Below, piece by piece: positions 15,756 through 24,055 of a stretch of 32,685 nucleotides of DNA; the stretch's first letter is position 1, and each line of letters starts with the position of its first letter. Position numbers and translations under genes: made by a program. Source of the stretch: a virus; the IMG/VR virus record IMGVR_UViG_3300011116_000515, positions 1 to 32,685 of that record. One strand, written 5' to 3'. The notes beneath the pieces are model-generated. The model did not search any database, was not told the origin of the DNA, and saw only the letters and a list, made by a program, of their open reading frames with translations.

Positions 15756-16483
15756 GCGCCAACATTCCAAAATAATGCACCCGGTGTTGCGTGTTCTTTC
15801 ATAAATTTCCATGCCTTTGCGTCATAAGTAGGAACAGAAGGAAAGGGTGGAGCATCAGCAGGATCAACTGCATCGAAGAAAGGAATGTCACACTTGTACA
15901 TTTTTGCTCTACCCAATTCCCTCTGTCCCATTTTATGACCAACAGAAACACAATTAAATTCTGCTTCCGGCCATGCTAACTGCAACCCCCTAGTAAGAGT
16001 TCCACTAGATCCAACAGTCCATACTTCTTTTGGTTGAATCGGTAGAGTCTTTGCTAATTCGCAAATTTCAGATATTACTTCAGGACAATCAAATCCAATA
16101 GGAAATAGTTTTCTATTGTCGGTGTCGGAAGCAACATAATCTCTTGCTCTCTTTTGTGTTACACTAAGCATACCGTTGTCTACTCCGTGTATTGTAGCAC
16201 CATAATTCATTGCTTTCAACTGGTAAGGATGAAGATTCTCCGGTTTTCTTTTTGCCATGAAAAGAATACATTTCTTATTGAAATGCTGACATACTCTTGC
16301 CAATGCAATTTGAGCATATCCTGTTGCTGGCGATGATCCATATACCATCTCAGATTGGGGCGAATTTTTAATTAGATTCTGAACAAATCTAGTTTTAGAA
16401 CCGCCTTCAATCAAATCATCACGAACAACATAAAACTGATTGTGCTTTTCTATAACGGGTTTTGGATTTATCTCGTCGGTCAT
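15752..16483 (-). CDS. PLP-dependent enzyme, ACC deaminase / D-cysteine desulfhydrase-like
   Basis: A 243-residue fold-type II (tryptophan synthase beta family) enzyme. IEGGSKTRFVQNL near residues 26-38 matches the GGNKTRKLE motif of ACC deaminase and D-cysteine desulfhydrase, so Lys30 is the likely PLP lysine. SSPATGYAQIALARVCQHFN near 50 matches the substrate-binding S-N-x-x-x-x-A-A-A helix. TVGSSGTLTRGLQLA near 154-168 is the glycine loop for the PLP phosphate. It ends in ALFWNVGA, matching the FxHTGG near the end of the family, so it is a compact but complete-looking core (usual length ~330). It is coupled by 4-nt overlaps to gp46 upstream and the methyltransferase downstream. The substrate is unknown; a link to DNA or nucleotide modification is inferred from the neighbour only. 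Confidence 0.82.
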   Translation of the reverse strand: MTDEINPKPVIEKHNQFYVVRDDLIEGGSKTRFVQNLIKNSPQSEMVYGSSPATGYAQIALARVCQHFNKKCILFMAKRKPENLHPYQLKAMNYGATIHGVDNGMLSVTQKRARDYVASDTDNRKLFPIGFDCPEVISEICELAKTLPIQPKEVWTVGSSGTLTRGLQLAWPEAEFNCVSVGHKMGQRELGRAKMYKCDIPFFDAVDPADAPPFPSVPTYDAKAWKFMKEHATPGALFWNVGA

Positions 16484-18195
16484 GTAAGTTTACTGAAATT
16501 ATTTTTCTTTTCAAAACCAATAACATGTTGAAACTTATCAACTAATTGATCTGATTTGTGACTAATAACAAAAATATTAGATTTATCACTTACGGCATTC
16601 AATAACTTCATTAGTTCATCCATACCCAAGGCATCAAGAGAAGAATCAAAGACTTCATCAAGAATCAAAATATTACAATTTACGCTATTCTTGGTTCTGG
16701 CAATTTCTCTCCACGCCAACAATAGTGCCAGATCAATTCTCATCTTTTCTCCTTCGCTGAAATTCATATAACTAAATTCATCTCTATGTCTACTTTTGAT
16801 CTTTTCATTGAAATCTTCATCAAGGGTAAACTGTGCAAAAAAGTCCATAGATGACAAAAATTTATTAATGTACTTATTCATAAATGGCAAATAGTACTTA
16901 ATGATTTTTGCTTTAACCCCGGAATCTTTCAATAGCACATGGGCATGTTCGTGATATAAAAGTTCATCTTTATTCTCTTCCTTTTCCTTTTCAAAAACAG
17001 ACAAAGAAGATTTATATTGGTTTAACTTTTGTTTCTGCGAATCAAGATGACTAGTGGAAGTTGTCATATCTGACAACTCTTTATTCAGAGTCGAAAGATA
17101 CTTTTCAGCGTTCTTAATAGATGTCTTTTTCTGTACAATTTCCAAATTTCTATCCTGTATCTCTTTACTTATTTTAGAAATTTCAGATAATCTATTAGAT
17201 ACATTATTGATATTACCATCCAAACTAACTATTGCTTTTTCGTATTCAGTTTTCTTTTCATTTCTTTTAGATACTTCTGTTTTCTTAGTTTCCGAATCTA
17301 TAGTCTGATTGCATGAAGGACAAGAAACATTTTCTTCAAAGAATGAAATATCTTTTTCTATGTTCTTAAGGTTTATATGAATTTTTGTTTTTAGTTTTTC
17401 AAGTTCATTTAATGATTTATTAGATGAAGTCTGATCTGCAATTTGCTTGACTAGTTCAGTAACTCCGCTCTCTAAATCGACAACTTCACCTCGTAGTGTC
17501 TGTATGTCATTTGAAATGTCATTTACTTTGTCCTGTACAAGTTTAATATCTTCATTACTTTTCGCTTCCATACTAGTAATGTGTTGTTGTTGCAGAACAA
17601 TTTTTTGTTTTTCCAAATCTATCTTTGTTGATATATCCCGAAGTGTTTCTTTTATCTGTAGAATCTTACCCTTAAGTAAAATATTCATTGTACTAAAGAC
17701 ATTAATATCAAGAATATTTTCAATTACGGCACGACGATCCGATGCCGATAATTGCATAAAAGGAACAAATGACGAACTACCCAATATCACAACTTGAGTA
17801 AAGGTCTTATAATTCATCTTTATAATTTGATCTTCAAGAACTTCTTGATAATCAAGACTTTTTGCATCCTGATTAACTAAAACACCATTCTTATGAATTT
17901 CAAATAACTTAGGATTCAACCCACGACGAACTAAGTATTCATCAGAACCTTTAGTAAATTCAATTTCAACTAAACAATTCTTATCATTTATAGAATTTAC
18001 TAATTGAGGAATATTGATCTTTCGGAAAGGTTTTCCAAATAGAGCAAATGTAATGGAATCTAGAAAAGCAAATGATTTTCCGCTACCATTATTACCACAA
18101 ATAAGAGTGGTTGGATTTTTGTCAAGAATCAGTTCGGTAAAATTATTACCAAACGATCCGAAATTTTTAAACCGTACCTTCTTGAACTTTATCAT
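16480..18195 (-). CDS. gp46: Recombination endonuclease subunit gp46 (Rad50/SbcC-like ATPase)
   Basis: gp46 is the SMC-like ATPase partner of gp47. At 571 residues it is near T4 gp46 (560). Walker A is CGNNGSGKS at residues 33-41. A long coiled coil runs from about 170 to 460, broken near residue 292-295 by the zinc hook CPSC that dimerises Rad50-type proteins. The ABC signature NFSEGEKMRIDLALLLAWR and Walker B NILILDEVFDSSLD follow, then an ISHKSDQ switch motif near the end. The ATG at 18195 is chosen because it starts directly with the conserved MIKFKKVRFKNFGSFG. The gene begins inside the end of the SET gene and overlaps the PLP-enzyme gene by 4 nt downstream. Confidence 0.96.
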   Translation of the reverse strand: MIKFKKVRFKNFGSFGNNFTELILDKNPTTLICGNNGSGKSFAFLDSITFALFGKPFRKINIPQLVNSINDKNCLVEIEFTKGSDEYLVRRGLNPKLFEIHKNGVLVNQDAKSLDYQEVLEDQIIKMNYKTFTQVVILGSSSFVPFMQLSASDRRAVIENILDINVFSTMNILLKGKILQIKETLRDISTKIDLEKQKIVLQQQHITSMEAKSNEDIKLVQDKVNDISNDIQTLRGEVVDLESGVTELVKQIADQTSSNKSLNELEKLKTKIHINLKNIEKDISFFEENVSCPSCNQTIDSETKKTEVSKRNEKKTEYEKAIVSLDGNINNVSNRLSEISKISKEIQDRNLEIVQKKTSIKNAEKYLSTLNKELSDMTTSTSHLDSQKQKLNQYKSSLSVFEKEKEENKDELLYHEHAHVLLKDSGVKAKIIKYYLPFMNKYINKFLSSMDFFAQFTLDEDFNEKIKSRHRDEFSYMNFSEGEKMRIDLALLLAWREIARTKNSVNCNILILDEVFDSSLDALGMDELMKLLNAVSDKSNIFVISHKSDQLVDKFQHVIGFEKKNNFSKLT

Positions 18196-18979
18196 TTAAA
18201 ATTTTCTCCGGCACTACCATAGAACGGAAAAGCAAATCTTCAGCAGTTTTTTCTTCAGTTGGTTTGGATTCCTGCAAATCTTCCTTTACCAATTCTATCG
18301 GTTCATTCTTCTTTCCGCAAGAAGAACAACCACTAACCGAATCTCTCAAATTCTTACCACTTGGTGGCCACCCCTCAGGCGTGCCACGCTCAAATGTCAT
18401 CTTAGATTCCATCTTAAGACGCATAGAATAACCAGCACCATAATACCATGTAATTTCTTCGTTTTGTTTAATATCAGTCATCGCATGGAGAGTGTAATAC
18501 TTTAATGCTGTGTCTTGTGTCCAATATGCATTTGGTTGTTCGGAATGATTATAAACCATTCCATTTCCTAGAACTAATGCCATAGTATGACCATGCTTTT
18601 CGCATATAGAGCAACCACAACCCCAGGCAAAAGCATATCGATTCAATACCCAATCTTTGTTTTGCGTAAAAGTGCTATCCAACAAAACTACTGGGCATTC
18701 TTCAATAATATCACCGGATTTGATGTCCTCAGATGCAAAAACACCAAGTCCACTAATTTTAGACTTTCCTACATAAACTTTTGGTTGAATGAATTTGCTC
18801 TTTATTGCAAATTTATTTTCCTTTGCGACATATGCGGAAACATAATAACTGTGGGATTTTCTTGCCGGAAATCCATATTCATCATACTCAGGAACCATAT
18901 CATCGTTTCCTGGCAAATAAATGGATGGGTCAAAAATCTTTGGTCTGTTTTCGTTTGATGGCATTTCATTTGTGTTCAT
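18167..18979 (-). CDS. SET-domain protein (putative protein lysine methyltransferase)
   Basis: 270 residues with a recognisable SET domain at about residues 64-185. The opening KVYVGKSKISGLGVFASEDI contains the GxG AdoMet motif with the S-x-x-x-G-x-G-x-F/A pattern; KSGDIIEECPVVLL follows. The pseudoknot motif is YNHSEQPNAYW (the NHS...PN element), and the closing segment is IKQNEEITWYYGAGY, equal to the family's E-E-[IL]-x-x-x-YG. An insert carries CGCSICEKHGH, and a second Cys pair (CSSCGK) follows the domain, so zinc binding is possible. SET proteins methylate lysines with AdoMet; the substrate here is unknown. It overlaps gp47 by 4 nt and gp46 by 29 nt, so it is co-translated with the nuclease subunits. 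Confidence 0.82.
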   Translation of the reverse strand: MNTNEMPSNENRPKIFDPSIYLPGNDDMVPEYDEYGFPARKSHSYYVSAYVAKENKFAIKSKFIQPKVYVGKSKISGLGVFASEDIKSGDIIEECPVVLLDSTFTQNKDWVLNRYAFAWGCGCSICEKHGHTMALVLGNGMVYNHSEQPNAYWTQDTALKYYTLHAMTDIKQNEEITWYYGAGYSMRLKMESKMTFERGTPEGWPPSGKNLRDSVSGCSSCGKKNEPIELVKEDLQESKPTEEKTAEDLLFRSMVVPEKILNDKVQEGTV

Positions 18980-20028
18980 AGGGTTAAACTCTCCATGTAT
19001 AGATCTTTTAATAAAACTTTCAATTTACTTTTATTTTCAATACCCTCAAGTAAATCGATTTCTTTGTTAATTATACTCAATGTATCTTGTGCAACATCAA
19101 TATCGCTCTCAATCAGTTTTTCCTGATAATCTTCTATTATTGATATTTCTTGTGCAGGAACAGCATACAAAGAATCAATAAATTTGTCAAATACAAATGG
19201 TTTTGTTTTATTGGATACTATTATCTTAATAAAACAATTTTTAAATTTGGACGGATCGTCTGACAATAATTGTTGTGTTTCCTGCGTTGTGTCATCATAC
19301 TTTATTGTATGGAAGATCTTGTTTGGATTTTCAATAAATGTCAATTCTCTTGTATCTGTATCCAAAACATGAAATCCCTTGACGCAATTTACATCGCCAA
19401 AATTCAATTGATACTGAGTACCAAGATAATGAATGTTTCTACCTTCTTGCTTCATATGAAAATGACCAGATAGAACCATTTCAAATCTATTGAATTCTTT
19501 TTCTGTTATTCCATGTGGATGCACAACGCCATTTATAACTTGGAATCCTTTTATCTCAAAATGCCCAACCACGATTGGACAACTACAGGATTGTATAAAA
19601 TTCAAACATTCGGTTTCATTATCTTTTGCAATCCAAGGAACCATGCCAATGCAAAGACCATCGAAGTTCAATTCTTCGGGTCTTTCAATAATACGAATTA
19701 CATTGCTCTCATTATAAAACAACTCGCGCAACGAGTTCAATGAATTTGTGTTTTTATAATAAGTGTCATGATTGCCTACTGTTATATAAGTATTGATTTT
19801 ATTCTCAACCAATGGAGCAAAAAATCTATTTCTTACTTGAGAGAGTGTATTAAAGTTAATAAACTTTCTTCTGTCTAATAGATCTCCAAGGTGGAGAACA
19901 TTATTGATTTTGTTTTCCTTCAAATATGGAAAAAATATTTGTTCAAAGAATTCTAAAGAATGCTCTAGGAAAAATGGTGAATCGTTTCTCGCCCCAAAAT
20001 GGGTATCATTAATAATTGCAATTTTCAT
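18976..20028 (-). CDS. gp47: Recombination endonuclease subunit gp47 (Mre11/SbcD-like)
   Basis: gp47 is the metallophosphoesterase nuclease of the gp46/47 complex that resects DNA ends for recombination. At 350 residues it is close to T4 (339). All phosphodiesterase motifs are visible: INDTHFGA near residue 6-13, LHLGDLLDRR near 46, TVGNHDTYYK near 82, VVGHFEIKG near 154 and SGHFHMKQ near 186, giving the Asp/His/Asn metal ligands. The C-terminal third is a divergent capping/gp46-contact region. It starts 6 bp after gp55 and its stop overlaps the SET gene start by 4 nt. In T4, 47 and 46 are adjacent except for small ORFs; here a SET gene lies between them. Confidence 0.95.
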   Translation of the reverse strand: MKIAIINDTHFGARNDSPFFLEHSLEFFEQIFFPYLKENKINNVLHLGDLLDRRKFINFNTLSQVRNRFFAPLVENKINTYITVGNHDTYYKNTNSLNSLRELFYNESNVIRIIERPEELNFDGLCIGMVPWIAKDNETECLNFIQSCSCPIVVGHFEIKGFQVINGVVHPHGITEKEFNRFEMVLSGHFHMKQEGRNIHYLGTQYQLNFGDVNCVKGFHVLDTDTRELTFIENPNKIFHTIKYDDTTQETQQLLSDDPSKFKNCFIKIIVSNKTKPFVFDKFIDSLYAVPAQEISIIEDYQEKLIESDIDVAQDTLSIINKEIDLLEGIENKSKLKVLLKDLYMESLTL

Positions 20029-20034
20029 TGTATT

Positions 20035-20640
20035 TTAATCGAAAAAATTATCTGTCTTTTTCTTTTTACGCTTCTTCTTTCTTTTCTTTTCTTTCGGTTC
20101 CATCTTATCAATGTCTTGTTCCGACAGAAAGAATGTCTTTTGCATAAATTCACTATAAGTACAAGATCCTTGGTTTTCTCTCAACCAATCAGTAAATTTA
20201 CCATCCATATCATTCATTTGCAATGCTTTATATTTTACAAATGCTTGTTTCTTTTCTTTTTCTATTCTACGCAAAAAGGCATAATATATGATTTGGGTGA
20301 AATAAGAAAAGGGATTATTTGATTTTTTGGGATCAAAGTTATGCGCGTATAATAGGCAATTCTCTATACCGTCCCCAACCATGTCCTCTCGGAACGGATA
20401 ATTGATAAAATTGGGTCGGTAAGACAAATGTTCAGCAATTTTGACGAAGCATTCAGCAATATAATCGCTTACAGGGGGTCTAGGATCGTCGCAGGCCTCT
20501 GCGGCGCGCACAAGTTGCTTCCAGTCGGTCATTGCTTCACAAAACTTAACATTATCTATGTAATGTTTTATATTTGTTATTTCTTTTTCCGGGATAGATT
20601 GTTCTACTACTGGATTTTGTTTTTTCTTCTTTTTCTTCAT
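20035..20640 (-). CDS. gp55: Late-transcription sigma factor gp55
   Basis: gp55 is the small phage sigma factor that directs host RNA polymerase to TATAAATA late promoters. The 201-residue protein contains the degenerate sigma region 2 typical of gp55: YIAECFVKIAEHLSYRPNF near residue 68, NYPFREDMVGDGIENCLLYA near 88, then NPFSYFTQIIYYAFLRRIEK near 115-134, the core- and promoter-contacting helix, followed by KKQAFVKYKALQM. Both ends are unusually basic: MKKKKKKQNP at the start and a run of about 15 Lys/Arg before the last residues. The C-terminus TDNFFD could be a sliding-clamp-binding tail like those that link T4 gp55 to gp45 (inference). It heads an operon with its own sigma70-like promoter. 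Confidence 0.92.
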   Translation of the reverse strand: MKKKKKKQNPVVEQSIPEKEITNIKHYIDNVKFCEAMTDWKQLVRAAEACDDPRPPVSDYIAECFVKIAEHLSYRPNFINYPFREDMVGDGIENCLLYAHNFDPKKSNNPFSYFTQIIYYAFLRRIEKEKKQAFVKYKALQMNDMDGKFTDWLRENQGSCTYSEFMQKTFFLSEQDIDKMEPKEKKRKKKRKKKKTDNFFD

Positions 20641-20657
20641 AATTTACCCATGCACAA

Positions 20658-20685
20658 ATTATAACAAGTCACCAGAAGAAATCAA
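20658..20685 (-). promoter_or_regulatory. Sigma70-like promoter for the gp55 operon
   Basis: Read on the minus strand: -35 TTGATT (20685-20680), 16-bp spacer, -10 TATAAT (20663-20658) preceded by TG to give the extended form TGTTATAAT. The predicted start is near 20651, about 11 nt before the gp55 ATG at 20640, leaving a GGG-containing mini leader. Placed at the head of the gp55-47-SET-46 gene run. Confidence 0.7.
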
Positions 20686-20705
20686 GAAATTTGTCCGAAT
20701 TTCTC

Positions 20706-20734
20706 TTGACACCGCTGACTACTATCATTACAAT
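20706..20734 (+). promoter_or_regulatory. Sigma70-like promoter on the plus strand, divergent from gp55
   Basis: TTGACA (exact -35) at 20706-20711, a 17-bp spacer, and TACAAT (5/6 of the -10 consensus) at 20729-20734. It points right, opposite to every gene in the window. No coding sequence follows on the plus strand; a transcript starting near 20741 would be antisense to the Sm-like gene and uvsW. Confidence 0.5.
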
Positions 20735-20782
20735 TCCTGTGTCTGGTATCAAGAAGAACTATAGTTAGACTTTAAAGAAGCT

Positions 20783-21529
20783 TTAAGAGCTCTTGGGTGG
20801 ATCGGTATAATCATTCGAATTCGGGTCGGGACTCCAATCAGTCCAACGATTACCGTAATTTGGATGATTTTTTTCGTCCCCTGTAAATTTATTATCTTTT
20901 TTGACCTTTTTCGCTATTTTGGATAATTGTTTCGGATCCAATATACCGGCGTTCATTAAGTTCATTAATGCTTCTGGGGGGAGCATCATTGAGATATAAA
21001 TCATTGGTCTTTTAATAAAATCTATTTCTTCGTCGTCTTCAGGAAATGGCATGTTAGAATCTTTTGGTTCTTCAATGCTTTGTAATTTATTATATGCGTC
21101 GGAACCCATTTCTTCCATTTCGTGAAACAAATCACCAAATATTTGATTTAATATTTCTTCATCAGTAATTGGTTTTTTGTTTTTGTTTAATTTCTTAAGC
21201 AACGCATTTGCTTCTTCTTCGGTTATTTCTTTTCTGTCTTCGGAAAGAACATCTAATCTTTTCATTTCCATATCATATAATCTAAAAGTATCATCTGTTG
21301 GATCTAACATAGAAGCAATATGTGTTTTAGGAATTTCTATTTGTTGAGAAGTTGTGTGTATTAGCCAATCTTTCAACAAAGTCATATCATAGGGTCTTCC
21401 TATTTTATCCATTAATGTGGTTGTACGAAATACCATAGGTCTGGTAAGAACCAGAGTTCTTTTATTTTTCTCGGTAACATGAGAAATCAATTCTTCGCCA
21501 CTTTTTAATTTCAGAATTTTGTAACTCAT
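20783..21529 (-). CDS. Protein with Sm-like N-terminal domain, function unknown
   Basis: A 248-residue protein. The N-terminal ~90 residues read like an LSm/Hfq-type small beta barrel: YKILKLKSGEELISHVTE (bent first strands), a LTRPMVF strand, and QQIEIPKTHIASMLDPTDDTFRLYDME as later strands. This is a fold guess, not a firm family match. The middle (residues ~95-175) is acidic and helical; the C-terminus has a second short conserved-looking segment (MIYISMMLPPEALMNLMNAG) and ends in a charged, Asn/Pro-rich tail. Proteins with this opening occur between UvsW and gp55 in other marine T4-like phages (recollection, not checked). Its ATG overlaps the UvsW stop by 4 nt. A role in RNA binding is possible but unproven. 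Confidence 0.75.
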   Translation of the reverse strand: MSYKILKLKSGEELISHVTEKNKRTLVLTRPMVFRTTTLMDKIGRPYDMTLLKDWLIHTTSQQIEIPKTHIASMLDPTDDTFRLYDMEMKRLDVLSEDRKEITEEEANALLKKLNKNKKPITDEEILNQIFGDLFHEMEEMGSDAYNKLQSIEEPKDSNMPFPEDDEEIDFIKRPMIYISMMLPPEALMNLMNAGILDPKQLSKIAKKVKKDNKFTGDEKNHPNYGNRWTDWSPDPNSNDYTDPPKSS

Positions 21530-23007
21530 TTTAATTCCTCCAGGCGTATCTTTGTAAGATTATATAAGAACTTCTCATTAGTATATATGTCTATGCGTTC
21601 ATCCATGTGACGGAGCGCATGGTTTCTATATTTTTTATATCGAAGATCATCACCTATATCGTATATTGTGACTTTATCTTTGGTGTCGCTTTTTCTCAAT
21701 CCTCTTCCGATAGATTGTAATACTCTTACTACTGATTTAGATGGCGAAACGAATACAATGTTGTGTATGTTCTTAATATTTATACCAGTCGAACATGTTC
21801 CGTATGAAGCAACCAAGATGCTATCTGTTTGATTATTTACTATTTGTCTTATCTCTTCTCGTTCGGATGCTTCCGTACCACCGTATATGAAGAAACAAGA
21901 CTTGTTGCAATTCTTTTTAATTTCTTCATATAACGGTTTTCCGTGCTTATCGACATAATTGAATAGCACTAAAGTATTTCCTTTAAGATGGCAGCACAAG
22001 TTTACTATGAATTTGTTTCTATTTGTATTTGCAACCAACCACTGTATTTCATCAATGTATTTTGCTTTTTTGATTTCATCTATTTCCTCTTTTGTGTATT
22101 CAAGCAACAAACATTTGATCTTTAAATTAGAAAGAAGATTCTTGTCTATGAGAGATTTGGTTGAAGTCACATTATAGACTGGCCCAAATAAACCTTCTAC
22201 TACTAGTTTATGGACATGGGTTCCGTCTAATGTACCTGTTGTTCCAATTCTATAGGGACAGTCTTTCATCTTTGACATCAAGGTAGTCAGTGATTTTGCT
22301 TTAAACAAATGACACTCATCACCAAAAACACAATAGATGTTCTTAAAAAAGTCTTCTTTCATTTTGTAAATACTTTGCCATGTCGAAATGATTACTTTTT
22401 TATTTGTTTGTTTGTCTTGTCCCGAATATACCACATGACATTTTTTGATGAATCCGTCTTTGTTAGAATAATCTTTAAAGTCGTTGAACATCTGGGCAAC
22501 AAGACCTGTGGTTGGTACTACTACTAATATTTGTTTATTCTCTGGTATTATTTTTTCTAAACATCTGATTAGCATGTAGATTATCAAAGATTTACCACTA
22601 CCAGTTGGTGATATCAAGAGTGTTCTTTGTTTATTCAGTGCATGTTTTACTGCTTCTATTTGGTGTTCATGTGGAGTAATAACACTCCCACCCGAATAAC
22701 ATGTTATTGTTTTTAAAAAAGAATCTATATCTTCTTGTTTTATTGTTTGTTTTGGTTTTGGATTAAACTCTACTTTGTAATTTCGTTCTTCTGCAAATTT
22801 AAAAATGTAATCCAATAATCCTGCATATATTGTATGAGTTAGACTGTTAAACAATCTAATTTTTCCATCCCATACTTTATTTCTGTATGCAGGAGTAAAT
22901 TTAAAATTAGGAACAGTAAAAGTAAAAAACGAACTTAATTCCTTTGCGACTGAACGGTCGCAATCAATTTTAACATTGACTGAATCTAGTTCGTTAATTG
23001 TAATCAT
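21526..23007 (-). CDS. uvsW: DNA/RNA-DNA helicase UvsW
   Basis: A superfamily 2 helicase that unwinds R-loops and branched recombination intermediates, switching T4 from origin-dependent to recombination-dependent replication. At 493 residues it is close to T4 UvsW. Motifs in order: Walker A SPTGSGKS near residue 133-140, VVPTTGLVAQMF (Ia), Walker B GDECH near 230, motif III GTTGTLDG, motif V SYGTCSTGINIKNI, and motif VI VLQSIGRGLRKSD near 435. The N-terminal ~90 residues (SSFFTFTVPNFKFTPAYRNK...WDGKIRLF) form the small DNA-binding domain of the family. It overlaps uvsY upstream and the Sm-like gene downstream, each by 4 nt, so all three are probably translated together. Confidence 0.95.
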   Translation of the reverse strand: MITINELDSVNVKIDCDRSVAKELSSFFTFTVPNFKFTPAYRNKVWDGKIRLFNSLTHTIYAGLLDYIFKFAEERNYKVEFNPKPKQTIKQEDIDSFLKTITCYSGGSVITPHEHQIEAVKHALNKQRTLLISPTGSGKSLIIYMLIRCLEKIIPENKQILVVVPTTGLVAQMFNDFKDYSNKDGFIKKCHVVYSGQDKQTNKKVIISTWQSIYKMKEDFFKNIYCVFGDECHLFKAKSLTTLMSKMKDCPYRIGTTGTLDGTHVHKLVVEGLFGPVYNVTSTKSLIDKNLLSNLKIKCLLLEYTKEEIDEIKKAKYIDEIQWLVANTNRNKFIVNLCCHLKGNTLVLFNYVDKHGKPLYEEIKKNCNKSCFFIYGGTEASEREEIRQIVNNQTDSILVASYGTCSTGINIKNIHNIVFVSPSKSVVRVLQSIGRGLRKSDTKDKVTIYDIGDDLRYKKYRNHALRHMDERIDIYTNEKFLYNLTKIRLEELK

Positions 23008-23444
23008 TGTCCCTGTGTAAATTTAACCCAATCTATGGCAGCACGAATGTTCCATATACGATTGCTTATGGATTTAACCGTACTTTCTAGATAATTTATT
23101 TTCTCTCTTTGCAAATCAACTTTATTGCATAGAAGAATAACATCAGAATCACTTTCGATAAATTTGTCTAGATCTACTCGAAGTATTGAAAGATCAAAAG
23201 CTTCCCATCCTAATTTGGTCAATTGCTCTTCTGACATTTTACCAGAATAGTATAGCCATTTGTTTTTCTTTAGAACTGCAAGATCCGATTCAAACTTTTT
23301 TAATATGAGTTTTTCATCCATCAATATACACAAGTATTTGTTGTGTAGTTGTGGTACATTCAAACTTTCTCTGTCAAGAGAAGTAGAATCAATCTTCATA
23401 TCCTGTTCAATCATTATTTTAATATCGCTAAGTTTTATGCTCAT
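23004..23444 (-). CDS. uvsY: Recombination mediator UvsY
   Basis: UvsY loads the UvsX recombinase on gp32-covered single-stranded DNA in T4 recombination-dependent replication. The 146-residue product (T4: 137) shares diagnostic segments with T4 UvsY: an N-terminal DIKIMIEQDMKIDSTSLDRE (T4 has a matching KKDVFIDSTKLQYE), an LHNKYL segment, KNKWLYYSGK (T4 YYSGR), SILRVDLDKFIESD (T4 VLKVDTSL), and a C-terminal ISNRIWNIRAAIDWVKFTQG matching T4 IKSRGFAIKHIQDMRAF. It lies directly before UvsW, as in marine T4-like genomes, and its stop overlaps the UvsW start by 4 nt. There is no visible ribosome site; a promoter -10 lies immediately upstream. Confidence 0.9.
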   Translation of the reverse strand: MSIKLSDIKIMIEQDMKIDSTSLDRESLNVPQLHNKYLCILMDEKLILKKFESDLAVLKKNKWLYYSGKMSEEQLTKLGWEAFDLSILRVDLDKFIESDSDVILLCNKVDLQREKINYLESTVKSISNRIWNIRAAIDWVKFTQGQ

Positions 23445-24047: not shown

Positions 24048-24055
24048 TATTTATA
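24048..24055 (-). promoter_or_regulatory. T4-type late promoter octamer TATAAATA
   Basis: The minus strand reads TATAAATA exactly, the octamer recognised by gp55 in T4. It overlaps the T-tract of the gp23 terminator, so transcription is stopped and restarted within 40 bp. Only five bases (CTTCT) separate it from the ATG of the next gene at 24042. With the usual late spacing, initiation would fall at or within a base or two of that start codon, leaving no room for a ribosome site. Confidence 0.75.

Follow-up and report, generated by a model that had tools for sequence, protein, structure and literature searches.

In phage lambda, the antisense RNAs OOP and paQ come from early promoters that read against the end of a timing-sensitive gene, within a switch that differs from the one considered here. 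Among T4-like cyanophages, the sole antisense RNA in the literature covered, as far as the consulted sections go, is CfrI of S-PM2, which was observed as RNA and maps to psbA and a homing endonuclease gene (PMC2984593, PMC5931967). The consulted portion of PMC2984593 also gives NATAAATA as the cyanophage late promoter, reports that motA is absent from cyanophages, and describes the ordering of early, middle and late genes in cyanophages and relatives without MotA and AsiA as unsettled. In T4 itself, UvsW is the product of a late promoter and acts on origin R-loops by unwinding them, according to the part of the source covered here (PMC3016281).

We analyzed a T4-like phage contig of 32,685 bases (hereafter the window), in which all long open reading frames (ORFs) run leftward. 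The late sigma factor gene gp55 (20035-20640, minus strand; phrog_234, E 2.8e-57) is separated by 142 nt (20641-20782) from a second minus-strand gene (20783-21529; phrog_471, labeled 'methylamine utilization' in PHROG, E 6e-9). We call the latter Sm-like after the first-pass annotation; it has no Pfam match and is the predicted first target of an antisense RNA. Beyond it lie the uvsW helicase gene (21526-23007, minus strand; Pfam UvsW_N and helicase domains) and uvsY (23004-23444, minus strand; Pfam UvsY, E 1.2e-25). On the other side of gp55, a SET-domain protein (18167-18979, minus strand; PF00856, E 1e-13) sits between gp47 (18976-20028) and gp46 (16480-18195), an unusual member of a phage recombination operon.

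The first-pass annotation had proposed two divergent promoters some 40 bp apart in this gap, which it took to be the largest in the window. Both hexamer pairs were located and the gap is indeed the largest between long ORFs. The leftward gp55 promoter (20658-20685, minus strand) reads TTGATT from 20685, a 16-nt spacer and TATAAT ending at 20658, with 10 of 12 consensus matches and a TG preceding the -10. Facing away from it on the plus strand is a sigma70-type promoter (20706-20734) with TTGACA at 20706-20711, a 17-nt spacer and TACAAT at 20729-20734 (11 of 12 consensus matches). The two -35 boxes lie ~20 bp apart, and the distance from the minus-strand -10 to the plus-strand -35 is ~43 bp, in line with the earlier estimate. 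From the spacing, the rightward RNA is predicted to start at G 20741, so that the region at 20735-20757 (plus strand), conserved as described below, would comprise the discriminator and the first ~17 nt of the predicted RNA. A consensus scan of the 4 kb around the gap found no excess of promoters over chance (18 against 19.4 ± 4.4 in shuffled sequence); hexamers alone therefore prove little, and the case rests on position and conservation.

Conservation of the hexamers was a check set beforehand, and it was carried out on the loci that encode a related Sm-like gene (n = 11; L082-L092). The gap was placed in ten of these (L082-L091) by peptide or gp55 search, and the promoter comparison left out L092, which ends inside the gene, and L084, which ends before the -35 boxes. 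The -35 and -10 of both promoters, together with their spacing, were retained in the window and all nine readable relatives (10/10), with divergent spacer sequences. The stretch that varies least among close relatives runs from the plus-strand -10 onward (TACAATnCCTGTGTCTGGTAT). On sequence comparison, both predicted promoters are judged to be real and conserved.

The rightward promoter overlaps a plus-strand frame, SPEEIKK..., that is open for 40 codons from 20642 to a stop at 20762-20764 (frame 20642-20764). As the first-pass annotation had noted, it ends at 20764 without a usable start, ATG, GTG and TTG all being absent in frame before the conserved part. That annotation further suggested a remnant of an inverted gene piece, and the length of the frame, its identity in L082, L083 and L085 and its 82% identity in L086 and L087 speak for a gene or such a remnant. 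However, stops or frameshifts break it in L088-L091, loci that retain the promoter DNA, it has no match in PHROGs, and the best tblastn match among 50,697 phage records reached E = 0.2. With the frame not kept among relatives and no homologue found elsewhere, a gene or gene remnant is extremely improbable. A leaderless peptide starting at TGT was likewise rejected, its second codon being a stop in several loci (e.g. L003, L011, L055 and Melnitz). What is conserved of the frame is the putative promoter plus about 20 nt downstream, and the frame itself, which we do not count as a gene, is on this reading a by-product of promoter DNA.

Across more distant phages, we found 269 gp55 loci, 265 with the upstream gene present and 244 with gaps above 60 nt, which form 89 clusters at 80% identity (pairwise gp55 protein identity 45-100%, median 62%). 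An antisense sigma70-like promoter scored at least 11 in the gap of 81 of the 89 clusters, compared with 0.6% of shuffled gaps, so that the hexamers of an early sigma70-type promoter (TTGACA, 16 to 18 nt, a TATAAT-like box) occur above chance; the gp55 promoter itself reached this score in 52 of 89. In 100-nt bins over the 89 loci, the antisense scores of at least 11 formed a sharp positional peak just upstream of gp55, with 69/89 and 12/89 in two bins and 0-3 loci in each of the others, in a scan running from within the gene out to 2.4 kb upstream. The distance between the predicted antisense start and the stop codon of the upstream gene is 1-55 nt (median 23). uvsW follows upstream of the gap in 88 of 89 clusters, the remaining contig ending early; a count of Sm-like neighbors (41/89) was made under an overly strict position rule and was set aside in favor of the uvsW count. 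A loose pattern of promoter plus start region, allowing at most four substitutions, matched ten times in 1.05 Mb (both strands, 80 gp55 loci), and all ten matches sit just upstream of gp55 in the antisense orientation. The promoter is present in the named phages Melnitz, HTVC008M, S-CAM4, P-SSM4, Sf-CH1b, P-HM2 and S-PM2. Thus a promoter on the opposite strand reads into the candidate target gene, as for a cis-encoded antisense RNA, and the earlier proposal that it is aimed into the Sm-like gene and uvsW is supported at this level.

Loci with gaps of at most 60 nt were counted separately (n = 21). Eight carry an in-place site scoring at least 11 (L016, L019, L028, L033, L040, L080, L135 and L197) and two score 9.4 (L031 and L032). 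The remaining 11 of 21 have no convincing antisense promoter, among them L077, which scores 11.0 at an ill-fitting place; the promoter is therefore not indispensable. In two further loci (L020 and L026), extra DNA places the promoter 265 nt from the gp55 ATG, so the promoter stayed with the end of the Sm-like gene and not with gp55. A second TTGAC occurs 9-11 nt past the first in the -35 region of 12 of 88 loci (L090, L003, L011, L049, L053, L055, L061, L069, L073, L076, L078 and L079), exactly 11 nt away, one helical turn, in nine of them; it could be a regulator site.

Late-type promoter sequences point at the gap from the other side. A late-promoter-like TATAAATA lies inside the 3' part of uvsW (21777-21784, minus strand) and points to the gap; 57 of 80 loci have a counterpart. 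Another stands upstream of the gene preceding uvsY (24048-24055, minus strand). Of 80 loci, 57 carry the late heptamer ATAAATA on their sense strand in the stretch 400-1100 nt preceding the antisense start, and none (0/80) carries it on the opposite strand; the exact heptamer is absent from the searched range in 23 of 80, many of them from the window's family. All 11 genomes (11/11), as well as the window (at 21784), have NATAAATA ~490-1050 nt ahead of this start. Because of this placement and the identity of the motif with the cyanophage late promoter, it is likely that at least the Sm-like gene is transcribed toward the gap from a late-type promoter, against the sigma70-type antisense promoter.

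A promoter at a fixed position in very divergent phages, with gp55-type late promoters opposite it, suggests that the site makes a regulatory antisense RNA. We consider it probable, with moderate confidence, that the gap holds a divergent pair of early promoters, both of host sigma70 type, and that the rightward one is directed antisense against an operon read late. The leftward promoter would make gp55 mRNA, and the rightward one would start an RNA just past the point where the uvsY-uvsW-Sm-like unit ends (its 3' side) and run antisense into it. Early in infection, when host-type polymerase dominates, this predicted transcript or the polymerase making it would keep the late unit quiet by opposing leakage, and antisense transcription would also separate the late unit from gp55. 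After the polymerase has come under gp55 control, the antisense promoter would fall silent and the late unit would be read. The proposed early timing follows from promoter type only.

The conserved start region was compared over 88 clusters scoring at least 8.1 (L020, whose site scores 9.4 and lies 265 nt from the ATG, was excluded). Of these 88 loci, 71 have TG at 6-7 nt past the -10, as do 10 of 162 control promoters, these being other strong promoters of five genomes scored identically; a general trait of early promoters was ruled out by this difference. An inverted repeat of at least five Watson-Crick pairs spans the predicted start in 35 of 88 loci. Swapping the right halves among phages gave 10.9 ± 2.8 such loci (maximum 17), and 9 of 162 controls have such a repeat. 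The outer arms AAC...GTT occur in 27 loci, where the inner two pairs take 13 different combinations, and seven of these show perfect complementarity, where permutation would yield 1.6 (P 0.001). In this wider set, compensatory changes hence exceed permutation, in statistics that ignore the tree and overstate independence, an effect that one count per combination reduces and does not remove. The dyad is weak in the window itself and in its family. Its G-T versus A-C mismatches lean toward the plus strand, a composition bias that the permutations reproduce. Were the RNA to start at the customary spacing past the -10, transcription would not include the left arm, so the repeat would act in DNA, as a one-strand hairpin or protein site, unless the start is earlier than assumed.

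Searching 11 large or complete genomes with only the 23 nt after the -10 as query, we found in four genomes (S-PM2, Melnitz, G010 and G011) a further site that matches at 19-21 of 23 positions and has a -35 and -10 in front. Second promoters whose start region is nearly that of the gp55-gap site in the same genome lie at 162766 (plus) in S-PM2, 72434 and 38506 (both plus) in Melnitz, 39239 (minus) in G010 and 98024 (plus) in G011, and precede small genes in the sense orientation. In the other seven genomes the next best match was 16-18 of 23, with no promoter there. P-SSM4 carries a hairpin-like copy of the start region at 52489 (plus strand; 18/23) that lacks a recognizable -35 or -10. Promoter duplication or a shared factor could explain the second copies. 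The dyad might be an operator for a phage regulator, with the promoter mainly sensing that factor, as its covarying arms would allow, together with the sharing of a start region between two promoters within each of 4 of the 11 genomes. Yet the inner arms vary widely among phages, which suits structure better than a fixed site, and the dyad is weak in the window's family; we regard an operator as very unlikely. Only tentatively do we propose that marine T4-like phages possess a class of promoters with the start site inside a covarying inverted repeat, one arm on each side of the first transcribed base, the repeat differing between phages and sometimes being common to two promoters of one genome. 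Such a promoter might form a structure- or factor-dependent switch beside gp55 that sets when, in the passage from early to late expression, the antisense RNA is made (or an R-loop origin acts).

The second copies and the start region, the most constant part of the locus, also speak for an alternative in which the promoter makes a short trans-acting RNA, or a leader whose first ~20 nt are important as such, its overlap with the Sm-like gene being incidental. Terminator-like signals in the antisense direction fall in the 100-200 nt bin in 8 of 88 loci and in 0-4 per other bin, a hint of a short RNA in some phages. A terminator candidate in the window at 21440 was discarded, not being conserved in relatives. 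Strong terminator-like antisense hairpins also occur inside the coding sequence of the gene upstream of gp55, at distances from the start of +102 and +327 in L116, +165 in L179, +173 in L185, +142 in L239 and +124 in L029. Against a trans-acting RNA or leader, the window gave no Rfam covariance-model match (0) and no stable RNA fold, its fold not being unusual; little is conserved past the start region, and a second copy with a promoter is missing in 7 of 11 genomes. We hold this alternative to be unlikely.

A replication role was weighed as well, in which the promoter primes DNA synthesis and its RNA forms an origin of the R-loop type, the model being oriF of T4, near uvsY. Both uvsY and uvsW are neighbors here, T4 UvsW is described in the covered part of PMC3016281 as removing origin R-loops, and the predicted RNA opens with 20 purine-rich nt (0.63, compared with about 0.41 beyond them) and continues with 20 AT-rich nt. 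Neither a dyad nor a promoter equals an origin, however, and no extreme of cumulative GC skew, the strand-composition signal expected of a T4-type R-loop origin, fell at the site in any of five genomes (5/5), skew being a weak test here. An origin is, in our assessment, quite unlikely.

In the consulted sections of the literature searched, excluding Doron et al. 2016 (Syn9) and Millard et al. 2010, no earlier report of the gp55-gap antisense promoter was found. According to the part covered, strand-specific RNA reads exist for P-HM2 (PMC5082946), one of the cultured phages to which the promoter is tied by name, along with S-PM2, HTVC008M and Melnitz. An antisense promoter of early type, nearly universal here, that faces a late unit next to the late sigma gene would be a concrete, testable piece of the switch.

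In arrangement, the locus resembles lambda OOP and paQ in setting a putative early promoter against a gene end, and differs from them in its switch. Its TTGACA-17-TAnnnT architecture is that of cyanophage early sigma70-type promoters as given in the sections covered (PMC2984593, PMC3037559); unlike those, the gp55-gap promoter faces no sense gene, and its start region is mostly missing from the 162 controls. T4 oriF likewise has a promoter near uvsY and uvsW and an RNA with a role apart from coding, a role predicted for the gp55-gap RNA (PMC3016281, part covered), whereas T4 uses a MotA middle promoter and the gp55-gap site gave no GC-skew sign of an origin. CfrI is also a cis-antisense RNA of T4-like phages of the same group: in the sections covered, CfrI is an RNA observed at psbA, whereas here a predicted RNA would arise at gp55/uvsW from a promoter conserved across the group.
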